Shown here piece by piece: positions 4,337-36,912 of a stretch of DNA of 64,000 nucleotides. The notes beneath the pieces are model-generated. The model saw nothing but the letters and a program-made list of their open reading frames with translations. It had not been told where the DNA came from and made no database searches. Position numbers and translations under genes: made by a program. The DNA is from Moheibacter lacus (GTDB taxonomy: Bacteria; Bacteroidota; Bacteroidia; Flavobacteriales; Weeksellaceae): positions 186,001 to 250,000 of the forward strand of contig NZ_JACDZE010000001.1 in assembly GCF_014042165.1 (NCBI RefSeq), read 5' to 3'. The stretch's first letter is position 1. Each line of letters opens with the position of its first letter.

Positions 4337-4350
4337 AACTTGAGTTTTCT

Positions 4351-4358
4351 CAAATTTA
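4351..4358 (-). promoter_or_regulatory. Possible -7 box of the phosphatase gene
   Basis: TAAATTTG on the minus strand, matching TAnnTTTG, 14 bp ahead of the GTG start at 4336. No clear TTTG partner was seen at the expected distance. Confidence 0.4.
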
Positions 4359-4421
4359 TCGAATTAAAAAATTGGAGGCTTTAAGTTTGGGTAAAATTTG
4401 GGTTGTTTCTAGGGAAATTCT

Positions 4422-5804: not shown

Positions 5805-5897
5805 ACTACGAATTTAAGGAATTATTTAGGGTTTTCAGGCTTGAGAAATATCAGTTTTACACAGTTAATGAACAAGGGAAATTTGAAACTAATTATC

Positions 5898-7748: not shown

Positions 7749-7765
7749 TCAGATTTCATCTATAT

Positions 7766-7801
7766 AAAAAATCCGGAAACCTAAAGTCTCCGGATTTTTT
7801 T
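7766..7801. terminator. Bidirectional terminator between the GlsB-like gene and lpdA
   Basis: AAAAAATCCGGA pairs with TCCGGATTTTTT around an 11-nt loop; A and T runs on either side serve both convergent genes. Confidence 0.88.
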
Positions 7802-7818
7802 ATGTTTTAATTGTTCAT

Positions 7819-9222
7819 CTAAACATGCAATGGGCGTTTTTCTGTCGCATCAAGTGCGGCTTCTTTAACGGCCTCAGCGTACGAAGGATGTGCATGTGAC
7901 ATTCTTGCAAGATCTTCAGCACTTGCGCGGAATTCCATGGCTGTAACGCCTTCGTGAATCAAATCGGCAGCTCGGGCTCCTATCATGTGGAAACCAAGGA
8001 TTTCATCGGTTTTTGCGTCTGAAATGATTTTTACCAAACCGTCGATATCTCCTGAAGCACGGCTTCTACCTAGAGCACGCATCGGGAAACTTCCGACTTT
8101 GATCGCCACTCCTGCTTCTTTTAATTCTTCTTCCGTTTTCCCAACTCCGGCAACTTCCGGCCAAGTATACACAACTCCCGGAATCAAATTATAATTGATA
8201 TGTGGTTTTTGTCCGGCCAATTGTTCTGCAACCAAAACACCTTCTTCAGATGCTTTATGCGCTAACATTGCTCCTTGAACCACATCACCAATCGCATAAA
8301 TATTGGTCACATTGGTTTGTAGATGATCATTGACTTTTACTCTTCCGCGTTCGTCTAATTCTACGCCGGCATTTTCAAGTCCCAATCCTTCTGTATATGG
8401 TTTTCTTCCTACTGAAACCAAAACATAATCACCTTCGAAACTTAATTCTTCGCCTTTTTTATTTTTTGCGGTAACTTTTACATTGTCACCATTTCTTTCT
8501 ACTGCAGAAACACCTGTAGAAAGTTGGAATTTCATTCCTTGTTTTTTCAATACTTTTTGCAATTCTTTGGACATCGTTCCATCCATTCCCGGAATGATTT
8601 TGTCCATATACTCCACTACGGTAACTTCTGATCCTAATCGCAAATAAACGGAACCTAATTCTAAACCGATGACTCCTCCACCGATTACGATAAGGTGTTT
8701 CGGGATTTCTTTCAATTTTAAGGCTTCTGTTGAAGTAATGATTCTTTCTTTATCCAAATTGATAAATGGTAAACTGGAAGGTTTAGAACCGGTAGCGATG
8801 ATGGTATATTTGGATTCGATGACTTCAGCCGAACCATCATTTTTTGTCACTTTCACTTTTGTAGCACTTTCAAAACTTCCAACACCTTCAAAAACGGTGA
8901 TTTTGTTTTTGTCCATCAAATACTTAATTCCACCTGTAGTTTGGTCTACCACTTCTTGTTTTCTTTCTATCATTCTTGCCAAATTGGCTTTGGGTGGATT
9001 GATTTCGATACCATGGTTTTCAAAATTATGCGCAGCATTATGGAAATGTTCTGAACTGTCCAAAAGGGCTTTTGAAGGAATACAACCAACATTTAAGCAG
9101 GTCCCGCCTAGTGTTGGATACTTTTCTATGATGGCTGTTTTAAATCCCAATTGTGCGGCACGAATAGCAGCAACATAACCTCCCGGGCCAGAACCGATTA
9201 CCGTTATATCAAATGAACTCAT
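7819..9222 (-). CDS. lpdA: Dihydrolipoyl dehydrogenase (E3)
   Basis: A 467-residue flavoprotein that reoxidises lipoamide on 2-oxoacid dehydrogenase complexes and on the glycine cleavage H protein, passing electrons to NAD+. FAD-binding GSGPGG is at residues 10-15, the redox disulfide GGTCLNVGCIPSK has Cys42 and Cys47, an NAD-binding GGGVIGLELG lies near residue 180, and the C-terminal HAHPSYAE holds the catalytic His (about 445) and Glu of the partner subunit. Full length. No E1 or E2 genes are next to it; gcvP, which needs the same E3, is elsewhere in the window. A TAAATTTG box lies about 31 bp upstream. Confidence 0.97.
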   Translation of the reverse strand: MSSFDITVIGSGPGGYVAAIRAAQLGFKTAIIEKYPTLGGTCLNVGCIPSKALLDSSEHFHNAAHNFENHGIEINPPKANLARMIERKQEVVDQTTGGIKYLMDKNKITVFEGVGSFESATKVKVTKNDGSAEVIESKYTIIATGSKPSSLPFINLDKERIITSTEALKLKEIPKHLIVIGGGVIGLELGSVYLRLGSEVTVVEYMDKIIPGMDGTMSKELQKVLKKQGMKFQLSTGVSAVERNGDNVKVTAKNKKGEELSFEGDYVLVSVGRKPYTEGLGLENAGVELDERGRVKVNDHLQTNVTNIYAIGDVVQGAMLAHKASEEGVLVAEQLAGQKPHINYNLIPGVVYTWPEVAGVGKTEEELKEAGVAIKVGSFPMRALGRSRASGDIDGLVKIISDAKTDEILGFHMIGARAADLIHEGVTAMEFRASAEDLARMSHAHPSYAEAVKEAALDATEKRPLHV

Positions 9223-23662: not shown

Positions 23663-25876
23663 TTATTTGATAACCAATTTATGAGTTGATGCACCATTTG
23701 CAGTATCGATCGTTACCATATAAACTCCACTAGGTAGGTTTACTTGGTAAGACTGATCTAGGTTTCCACCGAAATGATTATTGGTTTTGCTGTAAACTAA
23801 TTTTCCAGCAGTGTCAAATATTTTCGTAGTGATATCACCTTTAGCAACGTTGTTTGCTTTCAAATAGAATTGACCATTGTTTGGATTTGGATAAAGACCA
23901 ACCATAGACAAATTCATATCGTTTACGCCCATCGTTCCAACAAGGTTAAATGGTCTAGAAACTGCATAATAGATATTTCCTTCTGCTTCAATCAAGATTC
24001 TGCAATCTTCTCCGGCAACTGTACCGGAAGGAATTGTGATCGTTTCAGAACCATCATTTGGCGTACTTGCAGCAACGACTGTAAAGTTCGCTCCATTATC
24101 AGTAGACAATGAGATTTTCACGTTTTCAGTGTTAATAGGATCAACATTTGTTCCAGCTACATCCCAAGTAACTTCCATAGTATTGGTACCCAAATCTACA
24201 TTCAAGTCTTCAGTTGGGCTTGTTACAACAAAAGGACCTGCGTCTCTTACAAAAACGCGCATATCGTCTTCTTTGGTTTGACCTCCTTCAGCATTATTGT
24301 CTCTTGCAGTAAAAGTAAAATTAAATACACGTGTTACGGTTGTTATGGATTCCCATTTACTTCTCCAATAACCTAAAGTTTCATTTACCGGAGTTTCCAA
24401 TACATATTCAAATTTAGGCATGTACCTTACTGGAACAGTTTCATGTGGGTTGGAACGGAAGTTTGGCCCAATTGTTTTGGTAAAGGAAACTCTACTGTTA
24501 GCACCTGTAGTTGAACTATTTCCCGTGTCATTTTGCTCCCAATTATAAACCAAAGGATCTCCATCTGGGTCACTACCTGTACCTGTTAAAACAAATGCTG
24601 TACCGGTAGGGATGTTATAATCCTCTCCTGCACTTACTTCTGGAGCTAAGTTTGCTAAATCGGTGTTGTTTGCACAAGGCTTGTTTTGTAAATTGTTTTG
24701 TACTTGCTGGATACTTCTATACGTAAAATAATCATCAGAATGCGCCTGAACATTTTGTGCTGTAATTCCAGCATACCCCATGATGGTTGATCCACTTCCA
24801 GGTTCTACATTTACACCTGTTCCTTCTACAGCATGTGAAAAAGTATGGTTGGCTCCTAATTGATGCCCAAATTCATGCGCTACATAGTCAATATCAAACC
24901 AATCCCCTTCAGGCCCTCCACTTCCTGGTGAAGTATAACCTCTTCCTTTAGTTCCATTGACACAAATACAACCGATACAACCAGCACTTCCTCCTCCTCC
25001 AGAACGGTGAAAGATATGACCAATATCATAATTGGCAGCACCAATTACAGCATCAAGATTACTTTGCAATTGACTCTGTGTTGTCCCAATACTTCCAGGG
25101 TTAGTGTATGGATCTGTTGCAGCATTTAAATAAACTATTTCGTCGTTGTTATCTATCAAAATGAGTTGAAGTGCAAAATCTTTTTCATAAACACCATTTA
25201 CTCGAGTCATGGTTGCATTAATTCCTCCCATCGCACCAACTAAAGTACCTCCAAAATACTGAGAATACTCACCTGTTACAGACTGCGCCAAACGGAAAGT
25301 TTTAAATACACCAGCATCAGATTTGTTAGCATTTACAATTTCATCAGAATCTCCCATCAAAGCTGCAGTTTCTTCAGTTGAACACTCAAAAGGAATGTCT
25401 CCTTGATTTCTATGGGTCTTTGAATCAAAAACAACATATTTATTACCATCCTCACTATATTGCTCTATAAATTCAGATTTCCCTGCTCTTAAAGTCATGG
25501 ATTGAAAACCTGCAGGAGAAGTACTGAAACGCAAATAAGCATTTGGATCGTCGATTCCTATTCCGACATAAGCCCTGATTTCAGGAAATTTTGCTTGCAA
25601 GGCAGGTGTAAAATTGGATGCTTCCCAAACTTCATATTTCTCCAATTCTCCATTAGCATTTGGGATAGAAATAATAGTTCCCGCAGAGTTTGTAAAACGT
25701 GAGTTTACATTAACCAACTGCTGGTCAAGTGCTTGTCTGTTTAAAGTATAAAGTCCACTTCCCTCTATCCTTTCTTTTCCTTCTTTAACTTTTGCATCAC
25801 CCAGCTTAGTCGCTGACCATTGTGAAAACCCAACAAATGGTGATACAAACGCTAAAGCCAATAAAATTTTTTTCAT
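23663..25876 (-). CDS. Secreted reprolysin-like zinc metalloprotease with T9SS sorting domain
   Basis: A 737-residue exported protease. Signal peptide: residues 1-18 (ALAFVSPFVGFSQ). The metzincin zinc site HEFGHQLGANH is at about residues 331-341, followed by a likely Met-turn in STIMGYAG (about 364). After the catalytic domain come Ig-like/PKD-like regions (DLANLAPEVSAGEDYNIP, GSDPDGDPLVYNWEQND) and the C-terminal type IX secretion signal from about residue 655 (LYPNPNNGQFYLKAN ... GVYMVTIDTANGASTHKLVIK). The protein is thus predicted to cross the outer membrane through the T9SS and be secreted or attached to the surface. Substrates are unknown. Confidence 0.94.
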   Translation of the reverse strand: MKKILLALAFVSPFVGFSQWSATKLGDAKVKEGKERIEGSGLYTLNRQALDQQLVNVNSRFTNSAGTIISIPNANGELEKYEVWEASNFTPALQAKFPEIRAYVGIGIDDPNAYLRFSTSPAGFQSMTLRAGKSEFIEQYSEDGNKYVVFDSKTHRNQGDIPFECSTEETAALMGDSDEIVNANKSDAGVFKTFRLAQSVTGEYSQYFGGTLVGAMGGINATMTRVNGVYEKDFALQLILIDNNDEIVYLNAATDPYTNPGSIGTTQSQLQSNLDAVIGAANYDIGHIFHRSGGGGSAGCIGCICVNGTKGRGYTSPGSGGPEGDWFDIDYVAHEFGHQLGANHTFSHAVEGTGVNVEPGSGSTIMGYAGITAQNVQAHSDDYFTYRSIQQVQNNLQNKPCANNTDLANLAPEVSAGEDYNIPTGTAFVLTGTGSDPDGDPLVYNWEQNDTGNSSTTGANSRVSFTKTIGPNFRSNPHETVPVRYMPKFEYVLETPVNETLGYWRSKWESITTVTRVFNFTFTARDNNAEGGQTKEDDMRVFVRDAGPFVVTSPTEDLNVDLGTNTMEVTWDVAGTNVDPINTENVKISLSTDNGANFTVVAASTPNDGSETITIPSGTVAGEDCRILIEAEGNIYYAVSRPFNLVGTMGVNDMNLSMVGLYPNPNNGQFYLKANNVAKGDITTKIFDTAGKLVYSKTNNHFGGNLDQSYQVNLPSGVYMVTIDTANGASTHKLVIK

Positions 25877-25935
25877 GTGTAAGCGTTTTTTTAATTGAAT
25901 TAATTTATTTTCGTAAATATATTAAATTTTTAAAA

Positions 25936-26406
25936 ATGAGAACACTTCCCATCCGTATTGTTTTTTTTACTTTTATCGTTTTTTTTACGCTGTCTTCTTT
26001 TTCCTGTGAGTCATCAAAATTGACCTCAGAATCGGCAACTACAATTTCGATGAACCAAATTTCCATTTCCTATACCGGAATGAGTGGATTTGAACAACAT
26101 CAAATCAACCAAAACGAAGTGATTACCTCTACAAAAGGAAGAGGTGAAACAACAGCTGACGCTAAAAAAGAAATTTCCAATAAAAATTGGAAACAATTAA
26201 ATCAATTGGTTTCTCAATTGGATCTTACAAAATTTGAGACTTGGGAAAGCCCAACGCAAGAAAGATTTCATGACGGTGCACGTGCCACTATTATAACCAT
26301 TGATGCTAATGGCCAAACTTATACATCCCAAGCCTTTGATGAAGGAAATCCACCTGCAGCGTTAAATGATATTTATAAGTATCTAGAATCTATAACCAAG
26401 TCATAA
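25936..26406 (+). CDS. Hypothetical lipoprotein
   Basis: A 156-residue lipoprotein: signal with hydrophobic residues 6-21 and lipobox SSFSC (Cys24?), then SSKLTSESATT. The mature domain reads as a small alpha/beta fold (ISYTGMSGFEQHQINQNE, NWKQLNQLVSQLDLTKFETW, ARATIITIDANGQTYTSQAFDEG). I do not recognise a named family with certainty. I start at ATG 25936; earlier in-frame starts run through the promoter region and into the divergent protease gene. The YkvA-like gene follows after 82 bp on the same strand. Confidence 0.7.
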   Translation: MRTLPIRIVFFTFIVFFTLSSFSCESSKLTSESATTISMNQISISYTGMSGFEQHQINQNEVITSTKGRGETTADAKKEISNKNWKQLNQLVSQLDLTKFETWESPTQERFHDGARATIITIDANGQTYTSQAFDEGNPPAALNDIYKYLESITKS

Positions 26407-26488
26407 CAAGAGAATAGATTTCTTTTTGTTCAAATTATTGGAATGCTTTTTGATTTTTATCGTTTGTTGTATACTTAAACTCTAGACA

Positions 26489-26833
26489 ATGAACAAATTA
26501 AAATTATTCAAACTCGCAGGAATCATAGGCCTTCAAGCCAAAACTTCCGAAATGTCTGCTACAGAAAGTGCCAAAGCTTTTGCCCGCATGATGATCGATA
26601 CCGTTTCCGGAAAATACAAACCAAAAAAACGAAACCTACTGATTGGAACTGCAGTAATCGCTTATGTCCTTTCTCCGATAGACATCATCCCCGGTTTTAT
26701 CCTCGATGATGCCGCCATCGTACTTTTTGCTTTAAAATATTTCGGGAGAGAAATCAACAATTATCTCGAATGGGAAAAAACACAAAAATTCAAAACCATC
26801 GTTACCGACGCAGAAATTCTGAATGAACCCTAA
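26489..26833 (+). CDS. YkvA family (DUF1232) membrane protein
   Basis: A 114-residue protein of the YkvA/DUF1232 family, recognised by the core NLLIGTAVIAYVLSPIDIIPGFILDDAAIVLFALKYF split over residues 50-86, with the conserved SPIDIIP...DD pattern. One or two membrane segments are predicted in that region. The function of the family is unknown. Its last 11 bp overlap the start of miaA, so it is translated from the same message; in flavobacteria such overlap with miaA may be incidental. Confidence 0.85.
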   Translation: MNKLKLFKLAGIIGLQAKTSEMSATESAKAFARMMIDTVSGKYKPKKRNLLIGTAVIAYVLSPIDIIPGFILDDAAIVLFALKYFGREINNYLEWEKTQKFKTIVTDAEILNEP

Positions 26834-27734
26834 AAAAAATACACTTATCGTCATCACAGGCCCCACTGCCATCGGCAAGACGGGGCTTGCTGTTTTTATC
26901 GCCAAACAACTCAAAACCGAAATTATTTCTTTTGATTCCCGTCAATTTTACAAAGAAATGAACATCGGAACTGCCGTTCCAACAAAAGATGAATTGGCAG
27001 AAGTTCCCCATCATTTTATCCATAATTTAAGTATTCACGAGGATTATACCGTTGGAGATTTTGAACAAGATGCATTGAAAAAACTGGAAGAATTGTTTCA
27101 AAAATACGATTCTTTGGTCATGGTAGGGGGTTCGGGAATGTTTGAAAAAGCCGTGACCGAAGGTTTGGATGAATTCCCGAATGTCGATCCCAAAATAAGA
27201 GAAGAATTAAACCAAGAATTTGAAATATTCGGCATCGAGAAATTACAGGAAGAAGTAAAAAATTCTGATCCTGATTATTACCAACAAGTTGATCTGAACA
27301 ACCATCACCGACTCATTCGTGCGCTGGAAATCATTCGCGAAACCGGAAAACCTTTTTCTTCTTTTCGGATAAATAAATCGGCTGAACGGAATTTCAACAT
27401 AATAAAAATTGGTCTGGAATTACCGCGTGAAGAAATTTATGAACGAATCAATCGTAGAGTGGATTTGATGATGGAAAACGGATTGCTCGAAGAAGTCAAA
27501 TCTCTTTACGAATTCAAACATTTAAACAGTTTACAAACCGTTGGTTACAGAGAATTATTTGATTATTTGGATGGGAAAATCGATTTTGATTTTGCGGTTT
27601 CAGAAATCAAAAAAAATTCACGTCGTTATGCCAAACGACAACTCACTTGGTACAGAAAAGATGAAAACATCCATTGGTTTTCGCCTGATAAAAAAGATGA
27701 AATCTTGAATCTAATTTTGAATTTAAAGTCTTAG
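26823..27734 (+). CDS. miaA: tRNA dimethylallyltransferase MiaA
   Basis: A 303-residue MiaA that adds dimethylallyl to A37 of tRNAs reading UNN codons. The P-loop GPTAIGKTGLA is at residues 12-22, the tRNA/substrate motif SFDSRQFYKEM at about 37-47, the VGGSGMF loop near 100, and the typical NNHHRLIRALEI near 160. It ends with the family's KRQLTWYRKDENIHWF. The gene overlaps the YkvA-like gene by 11 bp and is convergent with csaA across palindromic repeat copy A. Confidence 0.95.
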   Translation: MNPKKNTLIVITGPTAIGKTGLAVFIAKQLKTEIISFDSRQFYKEMNIGTAVPTKDELAEVPHHFIHNLSIHEDYTVGDFEQDALKKLEELFQKYDSLVMVGGSGMFEKAVTEGLDEFPNVDPKIREELNQEFEIFGIEKLQEEVKNSDPDYYQQVDLNNHHRLIRALEIIRETGKPFSSFRINKSAERNFNIIKIGLELPREEIYERINRRVDLMMENGLLEEVKSLYEFKHLNSLQTVGYRELFDYLDGKIDFDFAVSEIKKNSRRYAKRQLTWYRKDENIHWFSPDKKDEILNLILNLKS

Positions 27735-27737
27735 CGA

Positions 27738-27812
27738 ACTTTGTGTCTTCTTTGTTAACTTGGTGGTTAATTTTACCACAAAGAACACAATGTCTTTTCA
27801 CAAAGATCACTA
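27738..27812. repeat. Palindromic intergenic repeat, copy A
   Basis: An imperfect inverted repeat built on CTTTGTG/CACAAAG words between the convergent genes miaA and csaA. Its right arm ends CACAAAGATCACTA, shared with copies B and C apart from one base. It can form a long hairpin on either strand. Confidence 0.65.
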
Positions 27813-27820
27813 TTCTACTT

Positions 27821-28156
27821 TTACCCTAATCTACAACCATTCTCCGTTCCTCTTTCCGGCGAAATCAACACTACATCTTTATTTTCATTGTAAACACCAA
27901 GCACCAAACATTCCGACATAAAATCGGCGATTTGTTTTTTCGGAAAATTGACAACAGCCAATATTTGTTTTCCGATCAATTCTTCTTTAGTGTACAATTT
28001 CACAATTTGTGCGCTGGATTTTTTGATACCCAACTCACCAAAATCCAATTTCAACTGATAAGAAGGATTTCTCGCTTTCGGAAAATCATTCACTTCCAAT
28101 ATGGTTCCCACTCGAATGTCTATTTTTTCAAAATCTGCCCAAGTAATTTCGTTCAT
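27821..28156 (-). CDS. csaA: tRNA-binding domain protein, CsaA-like
   Basis: A 111-residue protein consisting of a single OB-fold tRNA-binding domain (EMAP/Trbp111 type): DFEKIDIRVGTILEVNDFPKARNPSYQLKLDFG at the start, then the conserved SSAQIVKLY and VVNFPKKQIADFMSECLVLG. Length matches CsaA, a dimeric protein described as an export-related chaperone in Bacillus; in practice it binds tRNA or related nucleic acids. Single gene, minus strand, facing miaA. Confidence 0.93.
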   Translation of the reverse strand: MNEITWADFEKIDIRVGTILEVNDFPKARNPSYQLKLDFGELGIKKSSAQIVKLYTKEELIGKQILAVVNFPKKQIADFMSECLVLGVYNENKDVVLISPERGTENGCRLG

Positions 28157-28228
28157 TTTTGTTACTTTTTTACAAATAAAAGATATTAAAGAGTTATAAA
28201 CGAAAGATTTTTATATAGATTCAAATGT

Positions 28229-28236
28229 TAAATTTG
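28229..28236 (+). promoter_or_regulatory. Possible -7 box of the OLD-like gene
   Basis: TAAATTTG at 28229-28236, 22 bp before the ATG at 28259. No clear upstream element. Confidence 0.4.
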
Positions 28237-28258
28237 AAAAATATCTAACTTATTTACT

Positions 28259-30250
28259 ATGACTTCATACGATCTTGTCTTAGACAGTCCTGAAAATAAA
28301 GAACTTTTCAAAGATTATCTTTTAAATAGTTCTGATCAACCATTGGTTTGTTTACCAAACTTTAATAAAATCAACATTTTCATTGGGTCAAATAATAGTG
28401 GCAAAAGTCGTTTCATTAGGAACTTAATGAAAGTAAAAGAATTTGAAGGAATTAATGACTACATAGAAACAATGAAAAAAATTGATAGTTATAATGAGGA
28501 AATTTCTAATTTAAAATCAATAGCAATAAGAAATAAAAATGAAATTCATCAAGGATATGGAGTTATGGGAAGTCAAACTAGAAGACATATTATTAATTCA
28601 GATTCTAGTTTAATAGAATTAACAAAAGATTCAAAATTTTTAGATTCATTAGAAATAAACAACAGTAAATTTAATGATGAACACCTTGTTAACTATGTAT
28701 ATAAAGCCAAATTAAAACTTGATATTGTTAAAAATCCTATTAAAGAATACTTACGAGCAAAAACTTACTACATTCCAACACTACGAACAGCACATTCTTT
28801 ATTTTATTTAGAAGAAAAGGAAGAAAATCAAATCATTCAAGATTCCGATTATCAAAAAATGGAGGAAGATATTTTCTACCATACATTATCCAAAAATTAC
28901 AAAATAGATAAAGAAATAGAAGTTTTTACGGGGTTGCATCTGTACCGAGAAATTTTAAATGCAAGAAACTCAGAAAGATCAATTAGAAAAAGATTTGAAA
29001 AATTTGAATCTTTTATAAGTAAAAACTTTTTTGATGGGAAACCAATAGATATCATTGCGAGATTTCAGAAAGAAGAAAATTTATCGGGAAAGAATTATAG
29101 CGAATTGATAAGTATAGATATTGAGGATGACAAACAAACTCGTTATTTATATGATCTAGGTGATGGAATCCAAGCATTAATTATTTTAATGTACAAAATA
29201 TTTATGGCCGAAGAAAATTCATTTATTTTTATTGATGAGCCGGAAATCAATCTCCATCCCGGAATGCAACGATTATTTTTAGAACAAATAACTACAAATG
29301 CAGATTTAAAAAAGAAAAATCTCACCTATTTCATAACCACACATTCCAATCATTTTCTTGATTTGACAATAGAAAAAGAGAATGTTTCAATCTATTCTTT
29401 CACTCCAAAAATTAGTGAAGAAAAAACCAAACAGTTTATTGTTAAAAATGTGAATGTTGGCGATAATGAAATATTGCAATCTTTAGGAGTAAATAATTCT
29501 TCAGTATTTATGGCCAATTCTAGTATTTGGGTGGAAGGAATTTCAGATAGAAACTATATTAAAGGTTTTTTAAAATCATATTGTAATTTTATTAATGAAA
29601 CTCCGCCCAAAGAAGACATCGATTTCGCATTTTTTGAATATGCCGGTTCAAACATTGACCATTATTTATTTGAAAAAGAATTTTCAATAGAAGAAAGTAA
29701 AATAATAATTAAAGATATCAATGCTTTAGCCTTAAGTAATAAAATATTTCTTTTGGCAGATTCTGACAATGAAAAGAAATCAACTAAAAAAGGAAAACGA
29801 TTAATAAAACTAGAAGAACAAAAATCGAAAAATTTCATTCCGAAAATTCTTTGGGAAATTCGAGAAATTGAAAATATTCTTCCCAATCAAGTCTGGAAAA
29901 AAATTCTGATAAATTTTTGCAATAAATCTTTGGTAAAAAATCACAAAGAAAAGGTTTTGGATAGAATTAATGATGCATTGATAAATATTAATAGTTTAAA
30001 ATATCAAAAGAAATATATCGGTGAATTTCTAAATGATATAAATAATCAATTAGGGAAAATTAGTAACTCTAATATTTTGAACACTTCAATCTATGAAAAA
30101 CAAAAAGATGGAAGTTTTGGAACTTTCATAAATAAAAGACAATTAAGCGAATACATTCTTGAGGAAAACATTTCTTGGGAAATCTTTTCTGAAAGTAAAT
30201 TGATTGAAGAACTTACAATTAGTATTTATGACTTTATTAAAAAGAAATGA
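28259..30250 (+). CDS. OLD-like AAA ATPase with TOPRIM nuclease domain
   Basis: A 663-residue protein with an ABC/AAA-type ATPase head followed by a TOPRIM domain, the layout of OLD-family nucleases. Walker A is GSNNSGKS (43-50). Walker B FIFIDEPEINLHP is near 321-333, after the signature-like region ending YDLGDGIQALI, and a sensor/H-loop line TYFITTHSNHFLD follows near 360. The TOPRIM glutamate is in WVEGISDRNY (about 424) and the DxD in FLLADSDNEKK (about 502). All key acidic residues look intact. The gene is clearly richer in A+T than its neighbours miaA and fabG and has no UvrD-like helicase or other partner, so a class 1 (stand-alone) OLD-like anti-phage nuclease is the best guess. Defence activity is inference. 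Confidence 0.82.
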   Translation: MTSYDLVLDSPENKELFKDYLLNSSDQPLVCLPNFNKINIFIGSNNSGKSRFIRNLMKVKEFEGINDYIETMKKIDSYNEEISNLKSIAIRNKNEIHQGYGVMGSQTRRHIINSDSSLIELTKDSKFLDSLEINNSKFNDEHLVNYVYKAKLKLDIVKNPIKEYLRAKTYYIPTLRTAHSLFYLEEKEENQIIQDSDYQKMEEDIFYHTLSKNYKIDKEIEVFTGLHLYREILNARNSERSIRKRFEKFESFISKNFFDGKPIDIIARFQKEENLSGKNYSELISIDIEDDKQTRYLYDLGDGIQALIILMYKIFMAEENSFIFIDEPEINLHPGMQRLFLEQITTNADLKKKNLTYFITTHSNHFLDLTIEKENVSIYSFTPKISEEKTKQFIVKNVNVGDNEILQSLGVNNSSVFMANSSIWVEGISDRNYIKGFLKSYCNFINETPPKEDIDFAFFEYAGSNIDHYLFEKEFSIEESKIIIKDINALALSNKIFLLADSDNEKKSTKKGKRLIKLEEQKSKNFIPKILWEIREIENILPNQVWKKILINFCNKSLVKNHKEKVLDRINDALININSLKYQKKYIGEFLNDINNQLGKISNSNILNTSIYEKQKDGSFGTFINKRQLSEYILEENISWEIFSESKLIEELTISIYDFIKKK

Positions 30251-30302
30251 TTATCTATCTATTAACGCGAAATGCTTAATTTAGCCAAACCAAAAAATCA
30301 CT

Positions 30303-31049
30303 ATGGAATTACTCAAAGGAAAAACGGCCATCATCACAGGTGCCACGCGCGGAATCGGAAAAGGAATCGCTGAAGTTTTTGCCAAAAACGGTTGCAATGT
30401 CGCTTTTACATTTGCTTCTTCAGTCGAAAAAGCCAAAATTCTCGAAAATGAATTGGCAGAATTCGGCGTGAAAGCAAAAGGTTATCAGTCCGATGCTTCG
30501 GATTTTGATGCTGCGCAAAAATTGGTGGATGATGTGTTAGAAGAATTTGGGCAAATCGACATCGTCGTGAACAATGCCGGAATTACGCGTGACAATTTGT
30601 TGATGCGTATGAGTTTGGAAGATTATGAAGAAGTAATCCGTGTGAATTTGAATTCGGCTTTCAACTTAACCAAAGCCGTGACCAAACCGATGATGAAAAA
30701 CCGTGCCGGTTCCATCATCAATATGAGTTCTGTAGTCGGTCGTAAAGGAAATGCCGGACAAGCCAATTACGCCGCTTCCAAAGCGGGATTGATCGGGTTT
30801 TCAAAATCCGTAGCGCTCGAATTGGGTTCTCGAAACATTCGTTGCAACGTGATTGCGCCTGGCTTCATCGAAACCGAAATGACGGAAAAATTGGATCCAA
30901 AAGCAGTAGAAGCTTGGAGAGCCGGAATTCCTCTTAAACGCGGTGGAACACCGGAAGACATTGCAAACGCTTGTTTGTTTCTCGCTTCCGATTTATCCAA
31001 TTACATCACCGGACAAGTGCTTAGCGTGGATGGTGGGATGTATACTTGA
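30303..31049 (+). CDS. fabG: 3-oxoacyl-ACP reductase FabG
   Basis: A 248-residue short-chain dehydrogenase. The NADP-binding TGATRGIGKG is at residues 12-21, NNAGITRDNLLMRM near 90, and the catalytic Ser-Tyr-Lys are in NMSSVVG and NYAASKAG. The NAGITRDNLLMRM segment and the ending GQVLSVDGGMYT are typical for FabG of type II fatty acid synthesis, which reduces 3-oxoacyl-ACP to 3-hydroxyacyl-ACP. Its codon use is housekeeping-like and unlike the genes on both sides. A 3-ketocapnine reductase role is conceivable but not supported by position. Confidence 0.93.
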   Translation: MELLKGKTAIITGATRGIGKGIAEVFAKNGCNVAFTFASSVEKAKILENELAEFGVKAKGYQSDASDFDAAQKLVDDVLEEFGQIDIVVNNAGITRDNLLMRMSLEDYEEVIRVNLNSAFNLTKAVTKPMMKNRAGSIINMSSVVGRKGNAGQANYAASKAGLIGFSKSVALELGSRNIRCNVIAPGFIETEMTEKLDPKAVEAWRAGIPLKRGGTPEDIANACLFLASDLSNYITGQVLSVDGGMYT

Positions 31050-31052
31050 TTT

Positions 31053-31077
31053 ACGAAGTACGAGTAACGAAGTACGA
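31053..31077 (+). repeat. Short direct repeat ACGAAGTACGA x2
   Basis: Two exact copies of ACGAAGTACGA (31053-31063 and 31067-31077) separated by 3 bp, directly after the fabG stop and followed by a T run. Origin unclear; it may be part of a dispersed intergenic repeat. Confidence 0.6.
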
Positions 31078-31106
31078 TTTTTTTAATTTGAAAATATAAG
31101 ATTTAG

Positions 31107-31613
31107 ATGGAGAAATATATCGTAGTCTATGATTTTTTGTCTTTTGATATTTTCCCAAAAATCTTATCCTTTTTTTTTCCGTTAATTTTCTATTTCATCT
31201 CGACCTATGTTTTAAAAAAAACAGAGCAAGGGATAGAAGTATTTGGCAGGTTGCATGATGGAGAAATGGAATATGCTATTTTAAAATTAATGCAATACTT
31301 AGGGATTTTTAGTTTTTGTGCATTAATAATCTCTTATTCCTATAAATATTACAATTCTTACCAAATTTTTCATAGCAAGGAATTAATCATAATAGAAGGC
31401 AAAATCACAGATTTTAAAGAACCTTATGAAGACGGAAAAAAGTCTGAAAGATTTAATTTGAAGGGTTTCCATTTTGATTATCTAAGTGGTTTGATGCAAG
31501 ATTGGGGATATAATTCTGAAGGAAATATTAAATCTGACGATTACTTAAAAGTATATTTTTATCAAAAAGAAGATAAAAATGTAATTCTGAAATTAGAGAA
31601 GAAGAAAAAATAA
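31107..31613 (+). CDS. Unknown membrane protein
   Basis: A 168-residue protein with two membrane segments at about residues 11-32 and 68-88 and a soluble C-terminal domain that begins with KELIIIEGKITDFKEPYEDGKKSERFNLKGFHFDYL. The second half resembles proteins that carry a small beta-barrel after two helices, but I cannot name a family. The gene is A+T-rich like the OLD-like gene and the cassette genes on either side, which marks 28259-32950 (apart from fabG) as an accessory region. It faces the tex locus across repeat copy B. Confidence 0.65.
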   Translation: MEKYIVVYDFLSFDIFPKILSFFFPLIFYFISTYVLKKTEQGIEVFGRLHDGEMEYAILKLMQYLGIFSFCALIISYSYKYYNSYQIFHSKELIIIEGKITDFKEPYEDGKKSERFNLKGFHFDYLSGLMQDWGYNSEGNIKSDDYLKVYFYQKEDKNVILKLEKKKK

Positions 31614-31624
31614 TTTAATAGAAA

Positions 31625-31708
31625 TCTTTGTGTTCCTTGTGAAATCCTAGTGTCCCTTGTGGTAAAATTCAACCACAAAGTGCACAAAGGGAATCACAAA
31701 GGTCACTA
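31625..31708. repeat. Palindromic intergenic repeat, copy B
   Basis: Same family as copies A and C: CTTTGTG words on the left arm, ACCACAAAG and CACAAAGGTCACTA on the right. It lies between the membrane-protein gene and the outermost tex tail copy, probably the original convergent intergenic region of tex. Confidence 0.65.
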
Positions 31709-31719
31709 AACTAAAAACT

Positions 31720-31839
31720 ACTCCAACATCGACAACTGAATTCGCTTTCGTTCCAAATCCACATCTGTTACGGTCACTTCCACGATTTGGTTCAGGTGAA
31801 CGACTTGGTTGACATCCGAAATAAATGCTTTGGTGATTT
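31720..31839 (-). pseudogene. Detached tex 3' end, copy 1
   Basis: A 120-bp copy of the last 38-39 codons of tex. Read on the minus strand it still encodes the tex ending from ITKAFISDVNQVVHL to RIQLSMLE and a stop, in frame, with one residue changed (Leu for Val before the final Glu). It has no start of its own. By eye it differs from the intact tex end at 7 of 120 bases, nearly all synonymous. It breaks off at the same base as copy 2. Confidence 0.88.
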
Positions 31840-31967
31840 AAGAATATAAAATTGCATATACAACACATTCCGAAACGGTATTGGCGATATTTGACAGAGA
31901 AGCAACTCTAAGATTTAGTAATATAAAACAAATTAAAGTTTAATTTTATAAAATATAATTTCAATAA

Positions 31968-32330
31968 ATGAATTGGGAAGGTTTTGTAAAAACTGAAAGA
32001 CTTGAAATTCAGTCAAAATATGAAAGTGAAATAAGGTTCGGTCCAGCTTATTTTAAACTTAAGTCTATTCCTGAAATTAAGCTTTTAGAATTTGATATTT
32101 ATGGAGATTGGTTTTATAGACACAAATCATTCCTATTTCTACAACAATGGAATTCAACAAAAACACCAAATACAAATTTGATTTGTATAAACCTTAACTC
32201 TTTTGAATATAAAATTGTCTTAGATCGAATTCAGTCTGTATTTTGGCTAATGGAATTCAAAAACGAAAAACTTTATTTCATTGATGATTATAACAAAAAA
32301 AAATATTTGATTGATTTGAGTAAATTATAA
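31968..32330 (+). CDS. Unknown 120-residue cassette protein, copy 1
   Basis: A small cytoplasmic protein (120 residues, no signal peptide or membrane segment) rich in aromatic and charged residues: it opens MNWEGFVKTERLEIQSKYES and contains LLEFDIYGDWFYRHKSFLFLQQW and FWLMEFKNEKLYFIDDYNKKKYLIDL. The alternation looks like a small beta-rich protein; size and look recall immunity proteins of polymorphic toxins, but I cannot assign a family. It is nearly identical to the copy at 32586 (Lys38 here, Arg38 there). It has its own AT-rich leader and sits between two detached tex ends. Confidence 0.72.
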   Translation: MNWEGFVKTERLEIQSKYESEIRFGPAYFKLKSIPEIKLLEFDIYGDWFYRHKSFLFLQQWNSTKTPNTNLICINLNSFEYKIVLDRIQSVFWLMEFKNEKLYFIDDYNKKKYLIDLSKL

Positions 32331-32335
32331 TAATC

Positions 32336-32455
32336 ACTCCACCATCGACAACTGAATTCTTTTTCGTTCCAAATCTACATCTGTAACGGTAACTTCTACA
32401 ATTTGATTCAAATGAACGACTTGGTTAACATCCGAAATAAATGCTTTGGTGATTT
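32336..32455 (-). pseudogene. Detached tex 3' end, copy 2
   Basis: A second 120-bp copy of the end of tex on the minus strand, in frame and ending RIQLSMVE plus stop, the same protein ending as intact tex. By eye it differs from copy 1 at about 12 bases and from intact tex at about 7, almost all synonymous. It breaks off after the codons for ITK, as copy 1 does. Confidence 0.88.
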
Positions 32456-32585
32456 AAGAATATAAAATTGCATATACAACACATTCCGAAACGGTATTGG
32501 CGATATTTGACAGAGAAGCAACTCTATAAGATTTAGTAATATAAAACAAATTAAAGTTTAATTTTATAAAATATAATTTCAATAA

Positions 32586-32948
32586 ATGAATTGGGAAGGT
32601 TTTGTAAAAACTGAAAGACTTGAAATTCAGTCAAAATATGAAAGTGAAATAAGGTTCGGTCCAGCTTATTTTAAACTTAAGTCTATTCCTGAAATTAGGC
32701 TTTTAGAATTTGATATTTATGGAGATTGGTTTTATAGACACAAATCATTCCTATTTCTACAACAATGGAATTCAACAAAAACACCAAATACAAATTTGAT
32801 TTGTATAAACCTTAACTCTTTTGAATATAAAATTGTCTTAGATCGAATTCAGTCTGTATTTTGGCTAATGGAATTTAAAAACGAAAAACTTTATTTCATT
32901 GATGATTATAACAAAAAAAAATATTTGATTGATTTGAGTAAATTATAA
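32586..32948 (+). CDS. Unknown 120-residue cassette protein, copy 2
   Basis: The second copy of the gene at 31968, with only two base differences in 363: one gives Arg38 instead of Lys38, the other is silent. The stop codon lies 3 bp from the stop of the intact, convergent tex gene. The near-identity of the genes contrasts with the clear divergence of the tex ends beside them. Both copies keep open frames, which suggests that the product is still selected or that the duplication is recent. Confidence 0.72.
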   Translation: MNWEGFVKTERLEIQSKYESEIRFGPAYFKLKSIPEIRLLEFDIYGDWFYRHKSFLFLQQWNSTKTPNTNLICINLNSFEYKIVLDRIQSVFWLMEFKNEKLYFIDDYNKKKYLIDLSKL

Positions 32949-32951
32949 TAA

Positions 32952-35081
32952 TCACTCCACCATCGACAACTGAATTCTCTTTCGTTCCAAATCTACATCT
33001 GTAACGGTAACTTCTACGATTTGGTTCAGGTGAACGACTTGGTTGACATCCGATATAAATGCTTTGGTGATTTTTGAAATATGAACGAGTCCGCTTTGTT
33101 TGATGCCGATGTCCACAAAACATCCGAAATTCGTAATGTTGTTGATGATGCCCTGAACTTTCATTCCGATTTTTAAATCTTCGATCGATTTGAGGTTTTT
33201 ATCAAATTGAACCATCACCGCTTTCTGTCTCGGATCCAGTCCCGGTTTCTTCAATTCTTCCAAAATATCTTTCAAAGTCGGCAATCCCACTTTATCTGAA
33301 ACATATTTTTCTACATTAATTTGAGCAATTAACCCTTCATTTCCAATCAATTCTTCAGTTGAAACTTTTAAATCTTTTGCCATTTTCTCCACCAATTTGT
33401 AGGATTCCGGATGTACAGCCGAATTGTCCAAAGGATTTTTACCATTTGGAATTCGGAGGAAAGCAGAGGCTTGTTGAAAAGCTTTTTCGCCCAATCTCGG
33501 AACATTTTTCAAACTTTCCCTCGAATCAAATTGTCCATTTTCTGACCGATAATTCACGATGTTTTCCGCCATTTTCTCACCGATTCCCGATACATAATTC
33601 AGCAAATGTTTACTCGCTGTATTCAGATTTACTCCGACTTTGTTCACGCAAAGCATCACAGTTTCATCCAATTCTTCTTTTAAAAGTTTCTGATCGACAT
33701 CGTGCTGGTATTGTCCCACACCGATGGATTTCGGCTCGATTTTCACCAATTCCGAAAGTGGATCAGCCAGTCGACGACCGATGGAAACCGCTCCACGAAC
33801 CGTTACATCAAATTGCGGGAATTCATCTCGGGCAATTTTTGATGCCGAATAAATCGAAGCGCCTGCTTCATTGACCACAAAAACTTTTAGGTTTCGATCA
33901 AATGGAATCGACTGAATCCAGTTTTCAGTTTCTCTTGAAGCCGTTCCGTTACCTATGGAAATCGCTTCGATTTGATAAGCATTCACCAAAGATTTGATCT
34001 TTTTGGAAGCATCATTTTTCTGGTTTTGAGGTGCATGCGGATAAACCGTTTCGTTGTGAATCAAATCTCCTTTTTCATCCAAACAAACGATTTTACAACC
34101 GGAACGATAGCCCGGATCAATCGCTAAAATCCGTTTTTCACCGAGTGGAGCTGCGAGTAAAAGTTGTTTCAAATTATTGGAAAAAACCTGAATCGAACTT
34201 TTATCAGCCTGTAATTTCGCTTCGTTCAGTCTTTCGTTGGAAAGTGAAGGTTCGAGCAATCTTTTGAAAGCATCAGCAATCGCATCTTCTATGATTTCGA
34301 CCAAATCAGTTTGATTGGTTTTAAGAATGATATTTTCAATAGTTTCCAAAGCCAATTTCTTTTCAATTCCGACAGAAACTTTAAGAAATCCTTCATTCTC
34401 TCCACGTAAAATCGCCAATAAACGATGTGGCGCACAGCGTTTCAAAGGCTCTGAAAAATCAAAATATTGGGAAAATTTCTGGGCATTTTCTTCTTCTTTT
34501 TTTGATTTGACCACTTTTGATTCAATTATCGTTTCATAATTGAATTTCCGGCGAAGTTGATTTCTGACGCGCTCATTTTCGTTGATCCATTCGGCCATGA
34601 TGTACTTTGCGCCTTGAATCGCATCTTCGATTGAATCTATTTCATCCGTTAAATATCGTGATGCCAATTCGTCCAAATCCCGAATCGGATTTTGTTTCAT
34701 GATAATTTTGGCCAAAGGTTCCAAACCCTTTTCTTTTGCGATCGCGGCTTTGGTTTTTTTCTGTTTTTTGAAGGGCAAATAATAATCTTCCAACAGAATT
34801 TCATCATAACAATTTTCAATTTTCTGTTTCAATTCTGAAGTCAAAGCATTTTGTTCTTCGATGGATTTTAAAATGGATGTTTTTCTTTTTTCCAATGCTT
34901 CAAAATTCACCTTTAATTTTGCAATCATGGAAATTTGAACCTCATCCAAATCCCCTGTCATTTCTTTTCTGTAACGGGAAATAAAAGGAATCGTACAATC
35001 CTCATTTAAGAGTTGAATGGTATTTTCAATCTGTTTTGTGGCAACTTGAATTTGATTTTGAATAAATTGAATGATGGTCAT
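32952..35081 (-). CDS. tex: Tex family RNA-binding transcription accessory protein
   Basis: A 709-residue Tex/YhgF protein. It has an N-terminal helical region, a YqgF/RNase H-like domain around IDPGYRSGCKIVCLDEKGDLIHNETVYPH (about residue 320-350), tandem helix-hairpin-helix motifs (TASKHLLNYVSGIGEKMAENIVNYR, VPRLGEKAFQQASAFLRI) and a C-terminal S1 RNA-binding domain (GMKVQGIINNITNFGCFVDIG to the end). Tex binds RNA and influences transcription and gene expression broadly. The gene is complete; its last 120 bp exist in two further detached copies to the left, so its present 3' end was probably brought in together with the cassette. Confidence 0.95.
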   Translation of the reverse strand: MTIIQFIQNQIQVATKQIENTIQLLNEDCTIPFISRYRKEMTGDLDEVQISMIAKLKVNFEALEKRKTSILKSIEEQNALTSELKQKIENCYDEILLEDYYLPFKKQKKTKAAIAKEKGLEPLAKIIMKQNPIRDLDELASRYLTDEIDSIEDAIQGAKYIMAEWINENERVRNQLRRKFNYETIIESKVVKSKKEEENAQKFSQYFDFSEPLKRCAPHRLLAILRGENEGFLKVSVGIEKKLALETIENIILKTNQTDLVEIIEDAIADAFKRLLEPSLSNERLNEAKLQADKSSIQVFSNNLKQLLLAAPLGEKRILAIDPGYRSGCKIVCLDEKGDLIHNETVYPHAPQNQKNDASKKIKSLVNAYQIEAISIGNGTASRETENWIQSIPFDRNLKVFVVNEAGASIYSASKIARDEFPQFDVTVRGAVSIGRRLADPLSELVKIEPKSIGVGQYQHDVDQKLLKEELDETVMLCVNKVGVNLNTASKHLLNYVSGIGEKMAENIVNYRSENGQFDSRESLKNVPRLGEKAFQQASAFLRIPNGKNPLDNSAVHPESYKLVEKMAKDLKVSTEELIGNEGLIAQINVEKYVSDKVGLPTLKDILEELKKPGLDPRQKAVMVQFDKNLKSIEDLKIGMKVQGIINNITNFGCFVDIGIKQSGLVHISKITKAFISDVNQVVHLNQIVEVTVTDVDLERKRIQLSMVE

Positions 35082-35101
35082 AATTGAATTTGAAAAGGGT
35101 T

Positions 35102-35109
35102 CAAAAATA
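35102..35109 (-). promoter_or_regulatory. Possible -7 box of tex
   Basis: TATTTTTG on the minus strand, matching TAnnTTTG, 20 bp upstream of the ATG at 35081. Confidence 0.4.
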
Positions 35110-35194
35110 CATTTAAGAAATTAATTTATCGAAGTCATTATAATAATCACCTCAAAAAACCTGATTTCAAACTCTTAATATCTAATTTCTATCT

Positions 35195-35202
35195 TACCTT
35201 TG
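35195..35202 (+). promoter_or_regulatory. -7 box of lysS
   Basis: TACCTTTG, 21 bp before the ATG at 35224. It contains a TTG in frame with lysS that should not be taken as the start. Confidence 0.5.
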
Positions 35203-35223
35203 CAGCTTGAAAATTTTCAAAAA

Positions 35224-36912
35224 ATGCAATTATCCGAACAAGAAATCATCCGACGAGAAAAATTAGCAGAACTCCAGAAAATGGGAATTGAGCCCTATCC
35301 TGCTGCCGAATTTGAAATCAATTCATCTGCCCAAGACATAAAACAGAATTATGAAGAAGGCAAACAGGTGAAGCTCGCCGGACGTTTGATGTCGGTTCGG
35401 GTGATGGGTAAAGCTTCTTTTGCCGAATTACAAGACAGTTCAGGAAGGATTCAACTCTATGTTCAGCGGGACGATATTTCGACAGATGAAGAAGGAACTG
35501 CTTACAACGTTTTGTTTAAAAAACTATTGGATATCGGTGATTTCATCGGGATTGAAGGATATGAATTCAAAACCAAAGTAGGTGAAATTTCCGTTCACGT
35601 CACCAAATTGACTTTGTTGTCCAAAACTTTGCGTCCGCTTCCGATCGTGAAAACTGATGACGAAGGAAATGTACACGATGCGTTTACCGATCCGGAATTG
35701 CGTTACAGAATGCGTTATGTAGATTTGGTGGTAAATCCGCACATCAAAGAAATCTTTGTAAAAAGAACAAAATTGTTCAATGCGATGCGTGATTTCTTTA
35801 ATGAAAAAGGCTATTTCGAAGTAGAAACGCCGATTTTACAAGCGATTCCAGGTGGTGCTGCGGCTCGTCCGTTTATGACGCATCATAACGCTTTGGACAT
35901 TCCGTTATACATGAGAATTGCCAACGAATTGTATTTAAAACGGTTGATTGTCGGTGGGTTTGACGGTGTGTATGAATTCTCTAAAAACTTCCGAAACGAA
36001 GGAATGGACCGAACACATAATCCGGAATTTACGGCAATGGAAATTTATGTTGCGTACAAGGATTACAACTGGATGATGGATTTCACCGAAAAGTTGTTGG
36101 AGCACTGTGCCGTTCAAGTTAATGGAACGACGAAATCGACTTTTGGCGAACATGAAATCGACTGGAAAGCGCCTTATCCGAGAGTTTCGATGCGGGACGC
36201 GATTTTGAAATTCACCGATTTCGACATCAAAGGAAAATCGGAAGAAGATATCAGACAAGCGGCTGTTTCTATGGGAATTGACGTCAACGATACGATGGGA
36301 AAAGGAAAACTCATCGACGAAATATTTGGGGAGAAATGCGAAGGAAATTTCATCCAACCGACATTCATCACAGATTATCCGGTGGAAATGTCGCCACTTA
36401 CCAAAAAACACAGAAGCGAAGAAGGTTTGACGGAACGTTTTGAATTGATGGTTTGTGGAAAAGAAATTGCCAATGCTTATTCGGAGTTGAATGACCCAAT
36501 CGACCAACGTGAACGTTTTGAAGACCAATTGAAATTGTCCGAAAAGGGTGATGACGAAGCGATGTTCATCGACCAGGATTTCTTGCGTGCGCTGGAATAC
36601 GGAATGCCACCGACTTCAGGACTGGGAATTGGGATGGACAGATTGATCATGTTTTTGACCAATAACCCTTCGATACAGGAAGTGTTATTTTTCCCTCAAA
36701 TGAAACCGGAAAAAAAACAAGTTCAGGTAAGTGAAGAAGCGAAATCGGTTTTAGAATTGTTGAATAAAATTGGCAAAACAGATTTAAACGAATTGAAAAA
36801 CCAATCCGGACTTTCGGGAAAAAAATGGGACAAAGCCATCAAAGAACTGACTGCCAATAAATTGGCGAAAGTTGAAAAAACAGATGATGGGCTTTTTGTG
36901 GAAGTCGTTTAA
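35224..36912 (+). CDS. lysS: Lysyl-tRNA synthetase (class II)
   Basis: A 562-residue class II LysRS. The N-terminal OB-fold anticodon domain includes VKLAGRLMSVRVMGKASFAELQD; motif 2 is FRNEGMDRTHNPEFTAMEIY (about 261-280) and motif 3 GLGIGMDRLIMFL (about 468-480). After the catalytic core there is an extra domain of about 60 residues (EEAKSVLELLNKIGKTDLNELKNQSGLSGKKWDKAIKEL) that looks like a winged-helix or helix-turn-helix, a known extension in Bacteroidota LysS. ATG 35224 gives MQLSEQEIIRREK; the TTG 24 bp earlier lies in the promoter box. Confidence 0.96.
   Translation: MQLSEQEIIRREKLAELQKMGIEPYPAAEFEINSSAQDIKQNYEEGKQVKLAGRLMSVRVMGKASFAELQDSSGRIQLYVQRDDISTDEEGTAYNVLFKKLLDIGDFIGIEGYEFKTKVGEISVHVTKLTLLSKTLRPLPIVKTDDEGNVHDAFTDPELRYRMRYVDLVVNPHIKEIFVKRTKLFNAMRDFFNEKGYFEVETPILQAIPGGAAARPFMTHHNALDIPLYMRIANELYLKRLIVGGFDGVYEFSKNFRNEGMDRTHNPEFTAMEIYVAYKDYNWMMDFTEKLLEHCAVQVNGTTKSTFGEHEIDWKAPYPRVSMRDAILKFTDFDIKGKSEEDIRQAAVSMGIDVNDTMGKGKLIDEIFGEKCEGNFIQPTFITDYPVEMSPLTKKHRSEEGLTERFELMVCGKEIANAYSELNDPIDQRERFEDQLKLSEKGDDEAMFIDQDFLRALEYGMPPTSGLGIGMDRLIMFLTNNPSIQEVLFFPQMKPEKKQVQVSEEAKSVLELLNKIGKTDLNELKNQSGLSGKKWDKAIKELTANKLAKVEKTDDGLFVEVV

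Follow-up and report, generated by a model that had tools for sequence, protein, structure and literature searches.

The window, a stretch of 64,000 nucleotides of Moheibacter lacus DNA, contains an OLD-like ATPase-TOPRIM gene on the + strand that is uninterrupted over 663 codons (Table 1). The genes around it are miaA, csaA, fabG and an ORF starting at 31107. The GC content of the OLD-like gene is 25.9% compared with a window mean of 36.5% (z -3.8, n = 621 stretches of equal length) and only 19.6% at third codon positions. The composition is foreign, in agreement with the A+T-rich patch described in the first-pass annotation. The fabG gene starts 52 bp 3' of the OLD-like gene, has a GC content of 44.6% and lies, as also described there, between the OLD-like gene and the 31107 ORF. 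The latter (31107-31613) encodes a membrane-like protein of 168 amino acids, has 26.4% GC and matches no family above cut-off (DUF4131 15.3 bits).

Further downstream, 31712-33078 is a tandem duplication that has carried the tail of tex along, and is probably what was first reported as tex cassettes. A 133-bp stretch occurs three times, at spacings of 616 and 618 bp, and the third copy enters the 3' end of tex (32952-35081, - strand). Two 300-bp copies, 99% identical, span large parts of two 120-aa ORFs (at 31968 and 32586).

Table 1. The OLD-like gene, its motifs and its flanking genes, with positions in the window.
Feature	Position	Strand	Basis
csaA-like gene (tRNA_bind), left flank of the insert	27821..28156	-	ORF list, Pfam
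Candidate promoter TAAATTTG, matching the Bacteroidota -7 promoter consensus TAnnTTTG	28229..28236	+	script pattern match
OLD-like ATPase-TOPRIM gene, 663 aa	28259..30250	+	ORF list, Pfam, predicted models, fold searches
Walker A GSNNSGKS, residues 43-50	28385..28408	+	sequence and conservation
Walker B / D-loop region IFIDEPEINLH, residues 323-333	29225..29257	+	sequence and conservation
H-loop THS, residues 361-363	29339..29347	+	alignment
TOPRIM domain and C-terminal helices, about residues 417-663	29507..30247	+	predicted model and fold search
TOPRIM motif 1, E426...D430, spacing as TsOLD E377/D381	29534..29548	+	alignment
TOPRIM DxD, D501/D503, spacing as TsOLD D431/D433	29759..29767	+	alignment
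E536/E538, candidate second-metal ligands, spacing as BpOLD T506/E508	29864..29872	+	inferred assignment
K626, candidate counterpart of BpOLD K562	30134..30136	+	conserved in 43/43; role inferred
fabG-like gene, right flank of the insert	30303..31049	+	ORF list, Pfam

The Pfam families AAA_15 (E 7.5e-17) and AAA_21 (E 7.1e-13) both match the protein above their curated cut-offs, and no Pfam match was obtained for the TOPRIM domain. PADLOC gave no confident system. Its matches are partial, with 62.6 bits for AriA, 54.3 for NsnB, 54.1 for the retron ATPase-Toprim_I-B and at most 45.6 for GajA, and the best of these models, AriA, spans the ATPase only. NF038234, the NCBIfam model of the Eco8 effector, reaches 22.1 bits, its cut-off being 250. 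The Rfam search of 24000-36000 at the gathering threshold gave zero matches.

The ORF and its strand were correctly called in the first-pass annotation, and the Walker A, Walker B, TOPRIM Glu and DxD motifs listed there are intact. Among 43 aligned relatives, G43, N45, G48 and K49 of Walker A are invariant and S50 is found in 42. Walker B E327, D503, E538 and K626 are present in all 43, and E426, D430 and D501 in 42 each. The spacing of E426/D430 and D501/D503 is that of E377/D381 and D431/D433, given as the catalytic residues of the Thermus scotoductus OLD protein, TsOLD (PMC7049728). E536/E538 may be the ligands of a second metal and the invariant C-terminal lysine, K626, may correspond to K562 of BpOLD.

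The full-length protein was modelled with moderate confidence (pLDDT 75.4, pTM 0.57), and the TOPRIM piece and the ATPase were judged separately. TM-scores of the whole model are low (about 0.2-0.3) because the domain arrangement is unsure. The top Foldseek match of this model is the Retron-Eco8 effector (E 6.6e-11), followed by GajA (7.7e-10) and TsOLD (1.9e-7). For the ATPase part, VIA-align places AriA (Z 13.4), PtuA and SMC heads in a tie at Z 12-13. The C-terminal 264 residues, modelled separately, gave a pLDDT of 83.8 and a pTM of 0.80, and here the top Foldseek matches are the TOPRIM crystal structures of BpOLD and XccOLD (E 7.2e-4 and 9.1e-4). VIA-align scores of the C-terminal model are Z 8.9 for BpOLD, 8.6 for XccOLD, 8.2 for AriB, 7.2 for TsOLD, 6.5 for Eco2 and 6.4 for GajA, with unrelated folds at 5.5 or below except for the hypothetical archaeal protein 2p62 at 6.2; the presence or lack of VIA-align rows for GajA, PtuA and Eco8 is no basis for excluding membership. 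Sequence search of the PDB gave two matches of the right kind, TsOLD (E 0.0056) and AriA (0.17), both weak by themselves. The OLD superfamily is characterised by an ABC/SMC-like ATPase at the N terminus, with both Walker motifs, and by a TOPRIM at the C terminus that carries the Glu, the Asp at +4, the DxD and additional acidic ligands; both are present here. The protein is an ABC-type ATPase fused to an OLD/AriB-like TOPRIM nuclease with intact catalytic residues.

A 2023 review (PMC10568477) defines OLD genes that stand alone as Class 1. The gene is single, with no helicase or reverse-transcriptase partner among the neighbouring ORFs or in 35 mapped loci, and the missing helicase noted in the first reading is thereby confirmed. 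The map comprises 35 loci with the gene and their clustered neighbours (L039 and L040, duplicates of L045 and L047, were omitted), and no partner gene of any kind recurs across the contexts in it. Like the Class 1 proteins P2 Old and TsOLD, the window protein is stand-alone with an N-terminal ABC ATPase, a C-terminal TOPRIM and matching acidic residues, and some relatives of its gene are found in P2/186-like phages. It differs from them in length, with 663 aa versus 586 for P2 Old and 528 for the solved TsOLD chain, and the family HMM gives only 22 bits on P2 Old; its C-terminal helices align through the end of the Class 2 protein BpOLD. Several helices follow the TOPRIM core in the model, and the alignment to BpOLD 391-593 (Z 8.9) differs little from that to TsOLD (Z 7.2). 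Of the known systems, BpOLD and XccOLD come closest to the TOPRIM model. By context the window gene counts as a stand-alone, Class 1 OLD gene, but its product may have a C-terminal domain of the Class 2 type.

The other related systems differ in gene content. Gabija GajA is accompanied by a UvrD-like helicase, whereas no such gene lies beside the window gene and fabG is downstream; the match to GajA models is partial (45.6 bits over 119 of 663 residues). The family HMM scores 25-40 bits on GajA of the same bacterial family, and by these scores the window family is far removed from both Gabija GajA and P2 Old. The Retron-Eco8 effector, a Class 3 OLD protein, is similar in its fold, but no reverse transcriptase is found nearby, no Rfam match in 24000-36000, and NF038234 stays below its cut-off. 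As for PARIS, the window protein is similar to AriA in its ATPase part (Z 13.4) and to AriB in its TOPRIM part (Z 8.2), but AriA and AriB are two genes while the window protein has both domains in one ORF. IbfA / HEC-04 is alike by description, as a single-gene ATPase-TOPRIM defence with anti-phage effect, found on a plasmid according to PMC12111858. YbjD/OldB is likewise described as a single-gene ATPase-TOPRIM protein with anti-phage effect (PMC13261556). In the family-HMM search YbjD was absent at E <= 1, and any homology to it beyond the general OLD fold would be remote.

The gene is patchily distributed. It was found in one of six genomes of the genus (two of the others are 76-81% complete), in 23 of 320 of the family (E <= 1e-30), in 13 of 395 of the phylum (9 of 171 genera) and in 8 of 249 Flavobacterium genomes, the last sample being drawn around G320, a genome picked for carrying the gene; all counts refer to sampled genomes, with few candidates scored per genome at first pass, and distant copies may be missed. 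The fabG gene was located in five of the six genomes of the genus, and the csaA-fabG site lacks the OLD-like gene in all four congeners where it is readable. In G001 a gap of about 90 bp separates csaA from fabG, and in G002 the 517-bp gap contains an unrelated ORF of 142 amino acids; G003 and G004 have the fabG locus without the OLD-like gene and with no csaA match there. Similarity to G001 and G002 stops at 28160 on the left, and similarity to relatives restarts at 30277-30302 on the right. Presence at this locus in all relatives, which would have argued for a housekeeping role in repair, was not the pattern found. The gene is accessory rather than housekeeping, and it is recently acquired.

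The genome carries a second OLD-like gene of 608 aa, 38% identical to the first, which lies at a distance of 30 bp from uvrC (G000 C1:1673006-1674613; L002, L066). In a tree of 44 rows the window copy clusters with Flavobacteriaceae copies, from Flavobacterium and Myroides, and not with those of its own family; the support, 86/89, does not reach the level that the tool stars. The second copy pairs with a relative on a viral contig outside the clade of the window copy (100/96, both on long branches). Since the two are placed apart they look separately acquired. Four broken copies (L050, L054, L060 and L065) were left out of the family HMM by a limit of 590 aa, and the tree in addition excludes L063, L072 and L114. 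One gene further on from the second copy and uvrC, a UvrD-like helicase of 1036 aa is encoded; it matches PDDEXK weakly and is probably an AddA-type housekeeping gene.

A diverged group of eleven loci in another genus (L055-L065) is found at a single site, between ferritin and ychF. The site is without the gene in all 11 genomes of the same genus examined, comprising every gene-free genome with a ferritin match; here ferritin and ychF are adjacent or have a short ORF between them, with a spacing of about 176-208 bp in ten and 599 bp in one. The junction was laid out for seven of the 11 empty and eight of the 11 occupied sites. In the eight intact occupied sites measured, about 2.2 kb separates the terminator-like hairpin of ferritin from a conserved element upstream of ychF, and no integrase or flanking repeats are visible at these eight. 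Two of the eleven copies are broken (L060 and L065), one with an ORF of 292 aa between its halves. The ferritin-ychF copies are an optional insert at a fixed site. Eleven diverged copies at one site in one genus must have been retained for some time, at least there, and the number of broken copies in the family indicates that loss is cheap.

The single-protein search of viral contigs gave five pattern-matching stretches, none of which was confirmed, and a search with alignment A1 then gave seven loci. In L071, a Vibrio phage that has P2/186-like genes, the relative is located between the CI-type repressor, or lysogeny genes near it, and the integrase, and four IMG/VR contigs (L076-L079) have a similar layout. 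Three of the phage relatives show 29-30% identity. The family HMM scores 320-347 bits on L071, L076, L077 and L078, and 211-420 bits on phage-borne or viral-contig relatives overall. The L079 copy, apparently broken, lies beside a restriction-modification pair of an XhoI-type endonuclease and a methylase. A partial relative adjoins the integrase in a 14.5-kb Vinavirales phage record, and two annotated phage relatives bear the depositors' label 'Retron_I_B ATPase_TOPRIM COG3593'. Partial relatives, each covering 44% of the query or less, were also found in 14 plasmid records, of which only L073 was taken further. In L071 a 458-aa gene (7761-9137; DUF3427 and NOV_C) overlaps the OLD-like gene by 4 bp, a possible two-gene form in phages.

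All nine Flavobacterium loci (L031-L035, L037, L038, L041 and L042) are in or beside an RNA-repair neighbourhood which, by Pfam and the maps, contains RtcB, Hen1, an Rnl-like ligase, a Pnkp1-like kinase-phosphatase, TatD and RlaP (PF10127). The same set of loci also holds one each from Myroides, Chryseobacterium and Epilithonimonas. The OLD-like gene is flanked by two RlaP genes in five of the nine and is next to one in L037; with L115 there are seven RlaP-adjacent loci (L032-L034, L037, L038, L041 and L115), and the Flavobacterium loci L031, L035 and L042 have no RlaP neighbour. In the slot the gene starts 1-10 bp downstream of RlaP or overlaps it, and in some genomes it also overlaps the second RlaP.

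In the 249-genome sample the OLD-like gene is present in eight genomes and a 352-aa RlaP in 24; four have both, adjacent in only two of these. The 22 RlaP-352 loci without an adjacent OLD-like gene were mapped (24 in total), and 16 have an intact tandem RlaP pair, the six without one being L122, L129, L130, L205, L206 and L207. The 16 OLD-free pairs are directly adjacent in three cases (L198, L203 and L204), enclose a PPIase-like gene only in one (L125) and large cargo in 12. A defence-linked profile matches in 11 of these 12: PDC-S06 together with a PrrC match (L120, L124 and L131), Hachiman (L127 and L200), a HamB-like helicase with an unassigned gene (L199 and L202), Avs4 (L201), SIR2-TPR (L121), TrlF (L128) and a Cap4-nuclease (L126), with one cargo unassigned (L123). 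In L122 a PDC-M62A/B pair adjoins the RlaP-352 gene. Since the slot otherwise has defence cargo or is empty, the OLD-like gene swaps with known and candidate defence systems. The Flavobacterium RlaP-RlaP gap is a defence hot spot, and no description of it as such was found in the literature searched. In the Epilithonimonas locus L047 a TrlF-like PHP-ATPase gene of 995 aa (3716-6703) lies near the OLD-like gene and resembles the TrlF gene of L128.

The relatives borne by phages and the interchange with defence systems in the RlaP slot make a single-gene anti-phage nuclease of the OLD superfamily, acquired by horizontal transfer, the best reading, and this is likely to be correct. Points that speak against it are the lack of a confident PADLOC system, the ferritin-ychF copies retained at one site in one genus, the broken copies in the family, and the OLD proteins Cran1 and YbjD, two studied cases that are not simply defence genes. 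The first-pass annotation had left two proposals side by side. The single-gene phage defence is favoured by the patchy distribution, the precise empty sites, the relatives in phage cargo slots and the interchange with defence systems, while the two-gene system split by fabG did not hold up.

For such a nuclease we infer the following trigger, substrate and phenotype. The SMC/Rad50-like ATPase half would dimerise and recognise that the cell is infected, the cue perhaps being altered DNA ends or the inhibition of a repair complex of the host. The latter would be comparable to P2 Old, which blocks lambda and is said to cleave host tRNA upon sensing RecBC inhibition (as told in PMC13261556). Binding or turnover of ATP would license the TOPRIM half, which would cut nucleic acid by two-metal catalysis with E426, D430, D501, D503, E536/E538 and K626. 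The phage would fail, and the cell may die too. Phage DNA and host tRNA are about equally probable as the substrate; AriB is described as a two-metal tRNA nuclease (PMC12409363).

A more specific version is that members of the family respond to infection by cutting host tRNA (or RNA of another kind), and that the Flavobacterium protein is the damaging half of a damage-and-repair pair, the RlaP slot being a hot spot with built-in RNA repair. The RtcB and Pnkp1-Rnl-Hen1 ligation genes nearby could then mend the OLD cuts after the phage has been cleared. This version is improbable, and a functional tie of the OLD-like gene to RNA repair is rated low for several reasons. The overlap with RlaP-352 is small in the sample, the slot also hosts other modes of action (SIR2, Hachiman and Avs4) and three Flavobacterium loci have no RlaP neighbour. 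Moreover, 3'-OH/5'-PO4 ends need neither RtcB nor Pnkp. Ends of this kind are reported for cuts by AriB-type TOPRIM (PMC12409363), and AriB-type cuts would accordingly not call for these genes.

It is unlikely that the gene serves to keep out plasmids or rival mobile elements, or is a selfish toxin-like cassette, instead of being a phage defence. Such functions would give an equally patchy and mobile pattern and the plasmid-borne partial relatives are consistent with them, but the temperate-phage relatives and the anti-phage slots suit phage defence better. A chromosomal repair or cell-cycle ATPase-nuclease would be comparable to the archaeal OLD protein Cran1, described as acting in the cell cycle (PMC12796447), or perhaps to E. 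coli YbjD, for which a knockout without phage phenotype is reported (PMC13261556). The housekeeping neighbours, the ferritin-ychF copy in eleven genomes of one genus and the uvrC gene adjoining the second copy agree with this, but a gene missing in five of six genomes of the genus and 297 of 320 of the family, with clean empty sites and with phage and defence-slot contexts, is very unlikely to have such a role.

An orphan effector of a multi-gene system that now does little, either a GajA that lacks GajB or the effector of a type I-B retron whose reverse transcriptase is missing, would explain why the Eco8 effector and GajA rank ahead of TsOLD for the whole model, and also the depositors' label on the two phage relatives. 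This origin is most unlikely when the family-HMM scores on phage and viral relatives are set against those on GajA and P2 Old and the Eco8 equivalog score against its cut-off; neither partner recurs in the mapped loci, and the catalytic residues are retained. Finally, that the gene is half of a two-gene system with the 31107 membrane protein is extremely unlikely, since the two share an A+T-rich stretch (25.9% and 26.4% GC) but no partner gene recurs and the co-occurrence looked for from the first-pass annotation fails, the 31107 protein, essentially an orphan, having a weak match in one other genome out of 316 (E 8.5e-4, broken by four internal stops) and its cluster being found in none of the other 38 loci.

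The single-gene anti-phage nuclease is thus most likely a further member of an already known sort of one-gene defence. In the 2023 review P2 Old is given as the sole stand-alone OLD protein then known to defend, and the question is put whether a lone OLD protein can confer broad protection (PMC10568477); IbfA (PMC12111858) and YbjD (PMC13261556) were reported after it. The window family is a compact, intact, chromosomal example of a stand-alone OLD protein with phage-borne relatives. Because many natural presence/absence pairs exist in culturable Flavobacteriales, together with the phage relatives, the lone-OLD question is directly testable here. The RNA-repair locus of Flavobacterium, with interchangeable defence systems in its RlaP-RlaP gap, is in addition a place to search for new defence genes.
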